DNA from: Actinomycetes bacterium
GTDB lineage: Bacteria > Actinomycetota > Acidimicrobiia > Spongiisociales > SHLN01
Reading direction: 5' to 3'
Assembly: GCA_024638625.1 (NCBI GenBank)
Contig: JAHEJY010000005.1
Span: 1 to 47,449, forward strand
DNA length: 47,449 nt
Part shown: positions 2,564 through 20,229 of the stretch, one piece after another
How positions within the stretch are numbered: the stretch's first letter is position 1
Layout: the number at the start of each line of letters is the position of its first letter
Translations under genes and position numbers: made by a program
Notes under the pieces: model-generated
The model's database searches: none
The model's input: the letters and a program-made list of their open reading frames with translations, nothing else
Told to the model about the DNA's origin: nothing

Positions 2564-3015
2564 AGTTGGGCGCGCTCATCGAGTTCCGCCACCTGTTTCG
2601 CTGCGATATGGATATCTTCAACTTCGACGATCGCGAACTCCGGTGCACATTTGGCCAAACCGGCCTCCTCGGCGAGCGATGGCGATCCGATCCAGATGAT
2701 CCTCTTGACGTGGGCGTCTGACAGTCCTTCCGCCCATGCCCTCGCGACGTCAACCGGCCTGGCGGCGAAGGACCGCTCGCGGTCATCCGACGCCGCCAAT
2801 CCCACGAGCACGGCCGAGAAAACCGAGGTTGCTGCCCCGCCCACGTGAGAGGCGTCAGAGATGTCGCCGGTCGCCACCTTCACGCCCTTCTCCTTGAGCA
2901 GAAGGCCGACGCCCGGGTCTGTGACGAAGGCACGGAGCTCACCGTCGCGAGCAAGCAGAGCCCCGACCGTCGCCATACCGACGTCGGTATCGGCACCGAC
3001 GACCAAAACGGGCAT
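2560..3015 (-). CDS. Short NAD(P)-binding (NmrA/SDR-like) protein
   Basis: Small Rossmann-type protein of 151 residues if it begins at the ATG at 3015, where the sequence reads MPVLVVGADTDVG; the ORF track start at 3054 lies inside ctaG. The start at 3015 is one base past the ctaG stop. The N-terminus has the beta strand and Gly-rich turn of atypical SDR/NmrA proteins (GADTDVG), then a strand ending in Asp after 'VKVATGDISD', as in nucleotide-sugar epimerase-like folds. It is roughly half the length of ordinary NmrA-like enzymes and has no visible YxxxK catalytic motif. It may therefore be a binding or regulatory protein rather than a full reductase. It overlaps the next gene by ATGA. Function unknown. 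Confidence 0.65.
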   Translation of the reverse strand: MPVLVVGADTDVGMATVGALLARDGELRAFVTDPGVGLLLKEKGVKVATGDISDASHVGGAATSVFSAVLVGLAASDDRERSFAARPVDVARAWAEGLSDAHVKRIIWIGSPSLAEEAGLAKCAPEFAIVEVEDIHIAAKQVAELDERAQL

Positions 3016-3016
3016 G

Positions 3017-3838
3017 TCAGCTGTCCACGTGCCGGGGCTGTGTGCTGGGGACACCCTCTTGCCTGGCCCATCGGAAGAACATCACACCGATTGCAAGCCA
3101 GGTGATCGGGATGGTGGCCACCTTCATGATGAGGCCGGCTATCTGCTGGTCTTCGAGGGCCGTGATGTCAAATACCCTCGGTGCAAGTTCGTACGTGTTG
3201 TACAGCGGAAAATCACCGAACGTGAGAGCACTGGCAGGGATGACGGCGATCACAGACGTCGTCAGAAACAAGAACAAAATACGAGCGAGGTAGGTCTTTG
3301 CCCGAAATTCCGGTATGGGGGAGAGAACCGGGAGCCAGAGCACGAGCCCGGTTGCGATCCACAGCATGTCCATGGCGAAGGAACCGAGCTGGCCGGCTCG
3401 CAGCGTATCGACAGTGATCGGCGCGTGGGTGGTTACCAGGAGTGCGTTATAGAGGATGCCAGAAAAGAGGAGCGAGCCGGTGACGCGCCGGGTGATTCGG
3501 TAGAGGCGGAGGCGGGCCAGGACTCGCCGCATCATCCATTCGGGGGTCCCCATGAGCATCAGAGGCACCGCCACCATGGCGTAGAGCACGAACTGGACCA
3601 TATGGGCTGACGCCAGGTAACCGGCGCCGAGGGGACCGAGTGGCCAGTCGGAGGCGACCCACAGTGTCAGAACCCCCAGCAGAAAGTAGATCTTCTGGCT
3701 GCGCGCCAGCACCTTATTGCGCGCCAGTCGGAAGTACAGCACAAGTAGCGCTCCGACAACTACCCAGACGCCCGGATACAGCGTGAGTTCCCAGCGCCAC
3801 GGGCGCAGAGAAGACGTGCACCACCAACTCCAGTTCAT
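3017..3838 (-). CDS. ctaG: CtaG-type cytochrome c oxidase assembly protein
   Basis: Polytopic membrane protein of 273 residues matching the caa3-type CtaG family, which helps assemble the copper site of cytochrome c oxidase. Visible hallmarks are several hydrophobic helices, a 'SAHMVQFVLYAMVAVPLMLMGTP' segment with the conserved His-Met, and later His/Asp-bearing loops such as 'TTHAP' and 'TALEDQQIAGLIMKV'. The family usually has 6-7 transmembrane segments. The ATG at 3838 lies 6 nt after a TAACCT box, so the gene probably has its own leaderless promoter. It heads the ctaG, NAD(P)-binding, beta-propeller, menA unit, while sco, PCuAC and cytochrome c genes lie just upstream on the same strand. 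The shared theme is copper delivery and respiration. Confidence 0.85.
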   Translation of the reverse strand: MNWSWWCTSSLRPWRWELTLYPGVWVVVGALLVLYFRLARNKVLARSQKIYFLLGVLTLWVASDWPLGPLGAGYLASAHMVQFVLYAMVAVPLMLMGTPEWMMRRVLARLRLYRITRRVTGSLLFSGILYNALLVTTHAPITVDTLRAGQLGSFAMDMLWIATGLVLWLPVLSPIPEFRAKTYLARILFLFLTTSVIAVIPASALTFGDFPLYNTYELAPRVFDITALEDQQIAGLIMKVATIPITWLAIGVMFFRWARQEGVPSTQPRHVDS

Positions 3839-12830: not shown

Positions 12831-14787
12831 CCGTGACGATGTCCGTATCCGCGAGTTTGTGCAGAAGCTGGCACACGCCGCCCCGCCTGCCCCGCCTTTC
12901 CCGGACCCGACGCTGCTGCGGACGCCGTCCGCACCCCCGGTTCGGGAGCCGCTGGGTTGGGGACCAAAGATCGGTTTTGCCGCCGCTGCGGTTCTCTTTC
13001 TCGTTGTCCCATTCTTCGTGTTCACCGGTGGCACCCCTCCCGGTGTACCGGACGCCCCTGGCGCAACACCCTCCACGGCGATCCCGGTCGAGATCTTCAG
13101 ATATCCCACGACCGACTACCAGGTCGTGCAGGATGGTTTTGTCTCTGGTTCGTTTGTCGTGCCTGACCCTCAAAACCCTCGCCTCGTATCGGCGGTAGTA
13201 GCGCGAGTCGACGACACGGGATTCGAGGGTGCCATCTCCATCAACGTCAACGAGCGGGACCCCGGATGGCCGGTGCTTGGCGAGTTGGTGACCAGCGGTA
13301 GGAGGGATATGAGGGTGTTCAGAGACAGCGGCAGTGTCACGCTGTCGTGGGACGACGGGGATCGGTTTGTGTGGGTCATGGGTGACGAGGAAACCCAACT
13401 GCGCGATCTGCTCGTCATCGGCGGTTCGGTCACGCTGGCCGACGGCGAGTTCGGTCCGGCGACGTTGACGATCGGGGACCTACCAGATGGTTATTCGATC
13501 CTTGCGACGTCCGAGCTGCGATCCAACCGTTCTGAACCCACGCTCACCCTCGGCGGCCCACCCACCGAGGCCATCTTCCCCCGGACTCCCCCCAACCCGA
13601 TTGTCATGGTCGAGGTGAATGCCGAAACTCATGAGCAGATAGCAGGTCGTTTCCCATCGGGCTCACGGGCGGTGGTGCGATCGCTCGACGGGTTCCTCGT
13701 CAGCAGGGGCGATTCCGCCGCCTATGTCTGGGAGGAATACCCCGGTTTGACAGTCACCGTGAGTGGGTCGGCCCCAACCGAACAGCTGCTGGCTGTTGCC
13801 GAAAGCCTCGAGTTCGTCTCAGAAAGTCAGTGGCGCGCAATCTACGACGTGCCCGAATCGCAACCGGCGCTGCCGACCACCACCATTATCACCATCGATT
13901 CAACGACCACCATGGTGACCCATAACCACTGCCAGTCTGATCAGATCAACACCGCTCTCGGAACTTCCGTCTCCGATATTCAGGGACCGGCCCAGGTGGT
14001 GGTCATCTCGAACATCGGTCAGACCGATTGTCTCCTCGAACGGCCGGTCAGCCTGGACGCCGTCCTCGAGTCAGGTGGTGTTTCAACCGGTTCGTTCGGA
14101 GTTTCGATTCGACACCATGAACCTGACCAGTTCCTCGCTCCGGGCGAGAGCGTGGCCGTTGTCTATGAGGTCGAGGCTGGTTGCCAGGCCCTCGAGCCTG
14201 CGAATGCCATCCGGCTCGAGATGACGAATGCCCTTGTGGTTGAGGTCCCGTTCACCGGCGAGCTCGGCTGTCTGCGGTTCGGTCTCCTGGCTCCCTGGTC
14301 CGACGGACAGCTGGGATTTGATGACGGCCAACCCGAACCTTCCGCCGAGCAGCGAGACCTCGTGGAGCTCCTGATGGCGTTTGCGGTGAACCCGACGCCT
14401 GCAAACCTATCCAAGGTTCCGTTGTCGGACAGCGTTGTGCTCACTGCCGGTCCTGACATCGCCAAGACGGTTGCTACCGACGAACTCATGGATCCGGCTG
14501 CCTGGGCGTTAGAGGCCGAAGAATTTCGAGGTGGGACCGGACCCGTCTCGGTTCTCGCGGCGCTCCGGGGCCTACACGAATGGGAGGCCGGTTTTGAGGT
14601 GACGATCGGACCGCATTCGCACTGTGCTTCCCCCTCTCAGCCGAGGGCGGCCGGGCTCGGCGGTCTTACCCAGGTGTCGATCCAATCGGTTGCCACAGAA
14701 AGCTGCCTGCAATGGTGGGTGGTCGATTTGTTCGTGGACGAATCAGATGAGATCGTCGGCATCACGTACGACCTCTGGGAGCCGTAA
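12823..14787 (+). CDS. Large membrane-anchored protein coupled to ECF sigma factor
   Basis: Unrecognised protein of 654 residues. Residues 1-45 are a short cytoplasmic Pro-rich segment, about 48-67 form one transmembrane helix (IGFAAAAVLFLVVPFFVF), and the remaining ~580 residues should lie outside. Topology and the 8-bp overlap with the sigma gene suggest an anti-sigma or sensor role, but I see no zinc anti-sigma motif (HxxxCxxC) in the short cytoplasmic part. A central Cys-containing region (about residues 365-485: HNHCQ..., 'SNIGQTDCLLERPVSL', 'LAPGESVAVVYEVEAGCQ', 'GELGC') resembles DUF4232-like extracellular domains. Another Cys pair lies near the C-terminus. The function is inferred from position only. 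Confidence 0.7.
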   Translation: MHNRDDVRIREFVQKLAHAAPPAPPFPDPTLLRTPSAPPVREPLGWGPKIGFAAAAVLFLVVPFFVFTGGTPPGVPDAPGATPSTAIPVEIFRYPTTDYQVVQDGFVSGSFVVPDPQNPRLVSAVVARVDDTGFEGAISINVNERDPGWPVLGELVTSGRRDMRVFRDSGSVTLSWDDGDRFVWVMGDEETQLRDLLVIGGSVTLADGEFGPATLTIGDLPDGYSILATSELRSNRSEPTLTLGGPPTEAIFPRTPPNPIVMVEVNAETHEQIAGRFPSGSRAVVRSLDGFLVSRGDSAAYVWEEYPGLTVTVSGSAPTEQLLAVAESLEFVSESQWRAIYDVPESQPALPTTTIITIDSTTTMVTHNHCQSDQINTALGTSVSDIQGPAQVVVISNIGQTDCLLERPVSLDAVLESGGVSTGSFGVSIRHHEPDQFLAPGESVAVVYEVEAGCQALEPANAIRLEMTNALVVEVPFTGELGCLRFGLLAPWSDGQLGFDDGQPEPSAEQRDLVELLMAFAVNPTPANLSKVPLSDSVVLTAGPDIAKTVATDELMDPAAWALEAEEFRGGTGPVSVLAALRGLHEWEAGFEVTIGPHSHCASPSQPRAAGLGGLTQVSIQSVATESCLQWWVVDLFVDESDEIVGITYDLWEP

Positions 14788-14813
14788 GAGATTCGGTCCG
14801 GGCACCCCCGGCC

Positions 14814-14819
14814 TAGGCT
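14814..14819 (+). promoter_or_regulatory. Candidate -10 box for the peroxiredoxin gene
   Basis: TAGGCT, the same hexamer as before the EamA and DUF5661 genes. It is followed by a 26-base leader that contains AAAAGGGG and ends at the CTG chosen as start. No -35 element was recognised. Confidence 0.4.
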
Positions 14820-14845
14820 GCTGCCTTCTTCTAAAAGGGGTTGAG

Positions 14846-15379
14846 CTGAGTTTCGATGTCAACAAGCTTGCAGACCAGGTTCTCATCGATCCAGACGGAC
14901 ACGAGGAACGATTGGGAGATCGCTGGGCCGAGCGCCCCCAGGTCGTGCTGTTTCTCCGCCACTTCGGTTGACTGACGTGTCGTGAGCGGGCCGGTCAGGT
15001 CCGTGATAGGTATGACGAGATCGTGGAAGCCGGAGCCGGGGTCGTTGCCATCGGGACCGGTGGGAAACGCTACGCCCAGGCGTTCATCGCAGATGAGGCG
15101 GTACCGTTTCCGGTTCTGCTGGATGAGGACGGGTCGGCGGCAGAGATCGCCGGCACAGCAGAGACAACTCTTTTCGCCCTCGCAGCCCCCAAACAAGTTG
15201 CTGCGGGCGCCAGGGCTGCATTACGGGGGAATCGCCAGCGCAACACCGGGAAGCGGCCACTTCAGTTGGGAGCCACGTTGGTGATCGGCCCGGGGGATGA
15301 GCTGAAATACGCCGATTTCGAAGAATTTGCGGGTGACCATGCCGATCTCGACGAAATCATCGGCTTGCTGACCGAATGA
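14846..15379 (+). CDS. Probable selenocysteine peroxiredoxin-like protein (UxxC)
   Basis: Thioredoxin-fold protein of the AhpC/TSA_2 (peroxiredoxin-like) type, about 177 residues. The ORF track splits it into a tail ending at 14971 and an ORF starting at 15023. Both are in the same frame, separated only by a TGA at 14969-14971. Read through, the centre is VVLFLRHFG-[TGA]-LTCRERAGQVRDRYDEIV; from family memory, relatives read FLRHFGCPFCRE, so the TGA replaces the first Cys of CxxC and leaves a UxxC motif. The rest is intact (VVAIGTGGKRYAQAF, VPFPVLLDEDG, a C-terminal strand-helix). No ATG, GTG or TTG lies in frame after the previous gene. The best start is CTG at 14846 (reading SFDVNKLADQVLIDPDG), five bases after AAAGGGG. 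The alternative is a pseudogene with a single nonsense mutation. No selA, selB, selC or selD gene is in the window. Confidence 0.72.
14986..15004 (+). promoter_or_regulatory. SECIS-like hairpin after the in-frame TGA
   Basis: The 5' arm GCGGGCC (14986-14992) pairs with GGTCCGT (14998-15004): seven pairs including two G-U, around the loop GGTCA. The loop begins 22 bases after the TGA, near the position of the E. coli fdhF SECIS loop, whose GGUC core is the same. The bulged U of the E. coli element is not evident. Confidence 0.5.
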
Positions 15380-19312: not shown

Positions 19313-20229
19313 TGAGACTGTCGATCCGATACATGACGAAGTACACCTATGGCGTCGAAGTCGGTGAGTCGCAAAACGCGCTGCGAGCATGTCCTCTCAA
19401 CAACGAGCATCAACGTCTGCTCGACTACCGACTCACCATCGATCCATTGTCGAACGTGGTGTCATACACGGATTATTGGGGAACCCGGGTCGATGTCTTC
19501 GGCATAAATGAACGGCATACCCGTCTCACGATTTTCGCTGATGCAGACGTCGAAACCTTTATGCCCCCACAGCCGAGCGGGTCGGATCTGCCGTCCGACG
19601 ACACGACGGGCCTTGCCAACCATTATGAGTATCGGACTCCGTCTCCTCATGTGCGATGGGGCACCGAGGTTCACGAGTGGGCCCGGGACATCACAGCCCA
19701 AGCCGGCAACACCTACGAGGTTGCAACGGCGATTCATGATGGAGTAGGAAGCCGTCTCTCCTACGTTCCTCATACCACCGTGGTCGGTACGCCGGTGTCG
19801 GACATCTTTGCCAACAAACAGGGCGTCTGTCAGGACTACGCGCACCTGAGCCTTGCTGCTTTGCGATCTATCGGTGTCCCGGCTCGGTACGTCAGCGGCT
19901 ACTTCTACGCCTCGCCTTCCGGGGAACAACCATCCAGCGACGAAATCGAGGTCGAGACACATGCCTGGATCGAGGTCGCCCTCCCGGGGCTTGGGTGGTG
20001 GGGCCTCGATCCCACCAACCAGCAGGTCGCCGGAGAGCGGCACGTCAAGATCGGTCACGGACGCGATTACGAGGATGTGACGCCTTTGCGTGGTGTATAT
20101 CACGGCGAGACAGACTCGACTGAACTGAGGGTCGGCGTCGTCATGTCGCGATCCGATTTGGCATCCCCGGTCATCGAACCGCGACCCGCTGCCGTGTTGA
20201 CGCAGCAACAACAGCAACAACAGCAGTAG
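19312..20229 (+). CDS. Transglutaminase-like protein with Gln8 tail
   Basis: Protein of 305 residues with the bacterial transglutaminase N-terminal domain (about residues 1-85, 'LSIRYMTKYTYGVEVGESQNALRACP') and a papain-like transglutaminase core. The catalytic Cys lies in 'NKQGVCQDYAHLSLAALRSIGVPARYVSGY', the His in 'THAWIEVALPGLGWWGLDPTNQ', and the Asp in GLDPT, so the triad is complete. Such proteins may act as peptidases or amide-bond transferases on the product of the neighbouring ATP-grasp. Unusually, the last eight residues are all glutamine, just before the TAG. The EEP-family gene begins six bases later. Confidence 0.92.
   Translation: MRLSIRYMTKYTYGVEVGESQNALRACPLNNEHQRLLDYRLTIDPLSNVVSYTDYWGTRVDVFGINERHTRLTIFADADVETFMPPQPSGSDLPSDDTTGLANHYEYRTPSPHVRWGTEVHEWARDITAQAGNTYEVATAIHDGVGSRLSYVPHTTVVGTPVSDIFANKQGVCQDYAHLSLAALRSIGVPARYVSGYFYASPSGEQPSSDEIEVETHAWIEVALPGLGWWGLDPTNQQVAGERHVKIGHGRDYEDVTPLRGVYHGETDSTELRVGVVMSRSDLASPVIEPRPAAVLTQQQQQQQQ
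20203..20226 (+). repeat. CAG/CAA tract encoding Gln8
   Basis: Eight consecutive Gln codons (CAG CAA CAA CAG CAA CAA CAG CAG) end the transglutaminase gene. Mixed codons make recent pure slippage less likely than for a uniform tract, though length variation between strains is possible. Confidence 0.9.

Follow-up and report, generated by a model that had tools for sequence, protein, structure and literature searches.

The gene and its reading frame

The window (the whole stretch of DNA analyzed, 47,449 nucleotides) contains a gene for a selenium-containing redox protein, almost certainly intact as judged from its sequence, which standard ORF finding breaks into 14624–14971 and 15023–15379. Read through, the frame 14846–15379 has the TGA at 14969–14971 as its sole internal stop, as originally predicted. 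The standard call retains only the C-terminal 118 residues, which is also as predicted. The following features were assigned:

14833–14840, + strand: AAAAGGGG, Shine-Dalgarno-like element 5 nt upstream of the CTG (from the sequence; putative function)
14846–15379, + strand: selenoprotein gene, product of the PRXL2/AhpC-TSA_2 type with thioredoxin fold and U42 (from translation, Pfam, homologues and AlphaFold2 model)
14969–14971, + strand: in-frame UGA for selenocysteine (Sec42), position 1 of UxxC (from the distribution of TGA and Cys in relatives)
14978–14980, + strand: TGT, putative resolving Cys45 of U-L-T-C (invariant in an alignment of 67 sequences)
14986–15004, + strand: candidate bacterial SECIS, GCGGGCC-GGUCA-GGUCCGU, loop at 14993–14997 (from folding, frozen synonymous codons and equivalents elsewhere)

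The read-through product, LSFDVNKLADQVLIDPDGHEERLGDRWAERPQVVLFLRHFG-U-LTCRERAGQV...LLTE*, has 177 residues with U42 in the motif LRHFG-U-LTCRERAGQ, and the gene is terminated by the TGA at 15377–15379. The codon at 14846 is CTG. It is probably the start codon, because it aligns with the ATG or GTG starts of relatives and is preceded by the Shine-Dalgarno-like element. CTG is unusual in this role and counts against the selenoprotein reading.

A sigma factor gene lies upstream and sufB downstream. This neighborhood is not conserved in relatives and thus reveals neither an operon partner nor a hint of the substrate. Elsewhere in the window, a transglutaminase-like ORF has a terminal codon repeat (20200–20226) that encodes eight consecutive glutamines (LTQQQQQQQQ).

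Protein family and fold

The product scores above the cut-offs of PF13911 (AhpC-TSA_2; 39.1 bits, cut-off 27), PF00578 (AhpC-TSA) and PF08534 (Redoxin), the latter two with similar scores. The AlphaFold2 model, calculated from the 67-sequence alignment, has a pLDDT of 91.4 and a pTM of 0.88. In fold it is closest to human prostamide/PGF synthase (PGFS; pdb entry 9usa, TM 0.82/0.89, r.m.s. deviation 2.1). The same protein is the best full-length match by sequence (pdb entry 9us9, profile E-value 3e-18), with its CxxC residues C44 and C47 aligned to U42 and C45. Score, fold and CxxC-type site thus agree with AhpC-TSA_2/PRXL2, and the protein is placed in the PRXL2 group, which includes eukaryotic SelU. 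The classical peroxiredoxin motif PxxxTxxC/U, with Sec or Cys in last position, is absent. In the motif R-H-F-G-U-L-T-C found here, Sec comes first.

The closeness to PGFS and the scores of ResA-type disulfide reductases, which are also among the solved relatives, speak for a selenoprotein with a role other than that of a peroxidase, either a PGFS-like lipid endoperoxide reductase or a ResA-like disulfide reductase. No conserved gene neighbor points to such a substrate, and this role is a possibility that we regard as somewhat doubtful. It concerns the function only and leaves the assignment of selenocysteine untouched.

Conservation of the UGA codon

A first homologue search yielded seven relatives with 59–72% identity, six of them labeled Acidimicrobiia or Actinomycetes, and all seven have TGA at the same codon. 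A profile built from these seven and the window sequence was then run against 296 genomes of the window's class (apparently Acidimicrobiia) and matched in 43. The aligned codon is TGA in 40 of these and encodes Cys in three (L045, L046 and L047). A phylum-wide profile search of 397 genomes added 23 TGA genomes outside the class and additional Cys forms. In total, Sec forms outnumber Cys forms by 63 genomes to eight in the class and phylum samples. All eight non-Sec forms have Cys at this column; no other residue was seen. All 67 aligned sequences share R38, G41, U/C42, C45 and D93. No relatives were found in a plasmid collection.

The original prediction had the TGA replace the first Cys of a CxxC motif and had named Cys in homologues beforehand as the test. 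The eight Cys forms and the aligned CxxC of human PGFS bear this out. Its argument that a random nonsense mutation would not hit this very codon agrees with the occurrence of TGA at exactly this position in 40 of the 43 class genomes and in the 23 outside.

In a maximum-likelihood tree the Cys forms L045, L046 with L047, L072, and L087 with L090 are nested separately among Sec forms at well supported forks. This fits a change from Sec to Cys that happened at least four times, if the direction is taken from the majority state.

Some genomes hold more than one copy. G319 has two selenoprotein gene copies in tandem (L071, contig C130), and G257 has two on contigs C194 and C103 (L042 and L069). 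A second, divergent TGA-containing relative with the motif LARYYG-U-AGCLDMLAQL is found at L025:1067–1567 (+ strand), on a contig that also holds a copy of the main family. L068 holds a relative similar to this divergent copy.

Comparison of the window gene with its relatives gave dN of ~0.2–0.3 on both sides of the UGA, with dS near saturation. Thus, the segment 3' of the UGA is translated and constrained. In general, UGA acts as a stop codon when Sec-tRNA is lacking. On this ground the codon might be a partly regulated stop that yields a 41-residue product at low selenium and the full selenoprotein at high selenium. The 41-residue piece, however, does not contain the active site and no sign of selection for this piece alone was found, so that such a regulated stop is very unlikely.

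A conserved hairpin downstream of the UGA

The candidate SECIS is a hairpin soon after the UGA, with G and U in its apical loop. It has a folding energy of -12.1 kcal/mol (z -3.2) and a distance of 21 nt from the UGA to the loop. Over the 39 nt after the UGA, the folding energy is not lower than that of synonymous recodings (mean z ~ -1). Energy alone is therefore no proof of a SECIS, and synonymous conservation, covariation and the contrast of Sec and Cys forms were used instead. An Rfam scan of the window gave no match; such a scan is uninformative for bacterial SECIS.

The 19 sequences of the window clade all read GCC GGT CAG GTC at codons +7 to +10, counted from the UGA, and 95% of them agree at codon +6. 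In the 61 other comparable columns, the main codon averages 59% and none is invariant. The freezing of codons +4 to +11 differs from that elsewhere with p=4e-4 (Mann-Whitney).

The sister clades have another hairpin, CGCGC-AGUU-GCGCG, which lies a few nucleotides further downstream. It is paired in 97.7% of cells, compared to 92.5% in shuffles, and three of the five pairs show compensatory changes on both sides. None of the slid controls is comparable in pairing or covariation score. Of the 44 Sec forms, 41 use the TTG leucine codon that forms this loop, compared to none of the eight Cys forms (p=2e-7), whereas TTG is rare elsewhere in the same genes (26 of 321 leucines). Inspection of further sequences showed a hairpin GAGCA-loop-UGCUC closer to the UGA in L065–L067 and a hairpin CACCU-CGUGA-AGGUG in L096–L098. 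Both were read from the sequences, with single examples folded. A competing stem is possible in some relatives, which, like the energy result, counts against the selenoprotein reading.

These observations also bear on the reading of the gene as a pseudogene or as a sequencing error, with a Cys codon (TGC or TGT) mutated to TGA or misread as such. The source genome is a fragmented metagenome bin (2.8 Mb, 86.5% complete, 232 contigs), which would speak for an error. However, the same TGA is found in 63 genomes from different assemblies and across genera and families, which rules out sequencing error and random mutation; the read error at 14969 that the original prediction had left to be checked is thereby excluded as well. 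Furthermore, strong purifying selection persists 3' of the TGA and the hairpin is kept at synonymous sites. A decayed or misread gene is thus highly improbable, even more so than the regulated stop.

Selenocysteine machinery

The complete set of selA, selB, selC and selD, which was to be sought in the same genome, is present. selA (423 bits) directly adjoins selB (305 bits), which extends past the contig end. The tRNA-Sec (selC) scores 71 bits with a cut-off of 47 and has the anticodon UCA. selD (377 bits) is of the Sec type, with a UGA in frame for the U of its catalytic U-A-C-K. A strong perfect hairpin, GCGCAG-GUU-CUGCGC, follows this codon. selD itself is thus a selenoprotein gene too (L018, contig C154, TGA at 1531–1533). 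Contig C94 of the source genome holds a further Prx-like frame with an in-frame TGA and a UxxC motif (L100, ~2879–3151, - strand, ...LLFLRGDW-U-PYCNGQ...), near a run of N. This frame probably encodes one more selenoprotein, from the common Prx-like UxxC group, which would bring the source genome to at least three selenoproteins including SelD.

Across genomes, selA is associated with the UGA form. Of the 296 class genomes, 201 have it. Among those with the TGA form the figure is 38 of 40, compared to 163 of the remaining 256 (Fisher p=2e-5), and none of the three with the Cys form has it (p=8e-4). In the genomes outside the class, selA was found in 21 of 23 with the TGA form and in 211 of 374 without it (p=7e-4). 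The four UGA-form genomes in which selA was not found are G234 (90% complete) and G188 (79%) in the class and G361 (98%) and G459 (83%) outside it. They count against the selenoprotein reading, although all but G361 are incomplete assemblies. Among the additional genomes with Cys forms, selA is absent from G415 and G026 and present in G540, G567 and G342. Since the exceptions include Cys carriers with selA, the contrast is strong and not absolute.

Genome-wide reassignment of TGA to an amino acid such as Trp or Gly would also leave the frame open, but has practically no likelihood, because TGA terminates the selenoprotein gene itself as well as 15 of the 36 clear genes in the window and is therefore a normal stop in this genome, the column elsewhere holds Cys and not Trp or Gly, and a full Sec system is present.

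Proposed mechanism

The machinery, the conserved UGA, its replacement by Cys, the signature of the hairpin and the purifying selection after the UGA together argue for a functional selenoprotein gene, in which SelB recodes the UGA and the product is a PRXL2/SelU-like protein with Sec42 as the likely nucleophile. We hold this reading with high confidence. SelB with Sec-tRNA(UCA) would recode the UGA at 14969–14971 as selenocysteine, directed by the hairpin just downstream, and such recoding at a SECIS is strongly supported by the sequence comparisons. The product would be small, with a thioredoxin fold, and belong to the PRXL2/SelU-like group. Judging from the UxxC motif and the homologues, Sec42 is the putative nucleophile and Cys45 its resolving partner. 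Sec42 most likely reduces a peroxide or a disulfide and would then form a selenenyl-sulfide with Cys45, which a thioredoxin-type or mycothiol-type reductant may resolve. We infer the actual insertion of Sec, this chemistry and the reductant. The most likely role of the protein is that of a selenol-based thiol peroxidase or disulfide oxidoreductase.

The family is widespread in bacteria but overlooked, being cut in two by gene finders. As standard annotation splits or truncates the genes, databases are likely to lack this redox protein, which is common in environmental actinobacteria, or to contain it in shortened form. A predominance of Sec over Cys forms is unusual for a family. Because Sec forms dominate and the RNA signal is readable, the family offers a clean natural series for the evolution of SECIS elements and the exchange of Sec and Cys.

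Comparison with known selenoprotein families

The profile NF040769 (SelL-related redox protein) is matched by all 67 relatives. Its cut-off is 120 bits; the window protein scores 88.8 and is thus not assigned to that family, whereas several distant Sec relatives from other classes do pass. SelL has two Sec residues, in contrast to the UxxC motif found here.

A catalogue of 2026 lists 119 prokaryotic selenoprotein (sub)families (PMC13188914). Its entries include cd02970 with UxxS as well as PF08534 and PF00578 with UxxC; it has no entry for cd02970/PF13911 with UxxC (PMC13188914). Sequences behind such entries are MDX2448127.1 for cd02970 with UxxS, HEU0032618.1 for the Redoxin family protein with UxxC and WP_010940744.1 for Prx-like with UxxC. 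The entry "Peroxiredoxin-like family protein (AhpC/TSA)" (cd02970, PMC13188914; PF13911 in PMC9312934) belongs to the same domain group and also has Sec in first position. By its description it is set apart from the present family as UxxS from UxxC. The Prx-like thiol:disulfide oxidoreductases (PF00578, UxxC/UxxU) and the Redoxin family proteins (PF08534, UxxC) combine a Prx-like fold with UxxC as here, and both are broad groups. According to the catalogue, a shared domain with a different motif makes a different subfamily (PMC13188914). By this rule the UxxC PRXL2-type group would be a new subfamily, although the broad Prx-like UxxC entries may already include members. A Prx-like thioredoxin fold with UxxC follows a residue logic of a known kind. 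The original prediction of a "new selenoprotein" therefore stands as to the selenoprotein, given the conserved UGA, the machinery and the Cys column, and is weaker as to the novelty.

SelU has a Prx-like2 domain, with Sec forms in fish, invertebrates and algae (PMC3473315). A study of the Sargasso Sea reported SelU only as a gene taken as eukaryotic (PMC1088965). No bacterial UxxC selenoprotein of the PRXL2/SelU type was found in the open-licence literature, a selection in which older key papers may be missing. SelU/PRXL2 (FAM213; prostamide/PGF synthase) and the present family share the Prx-like2 thioredoxin fold, with CxxC aligned to UxxC over the full length. In contrast to eukaryotic SelU/PRXL2, the family described here is bacterial, has ~20% identity to it and carries a SECIS of the bacterial type inside the coding sequence just after the UGA. 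Tentatively, it may represent an undescribed bacterial counterpart of SelU, a UxxC PRXL2 family with Sec by default across several families and classes of Actinomycetota and converted to Cys at least four times. If so, it provides a bacterial starting point for testing the origin of SelU, and a link to eukaryotic SelU that goes beyond a common fold would have implications for how that selenoprotein arose.
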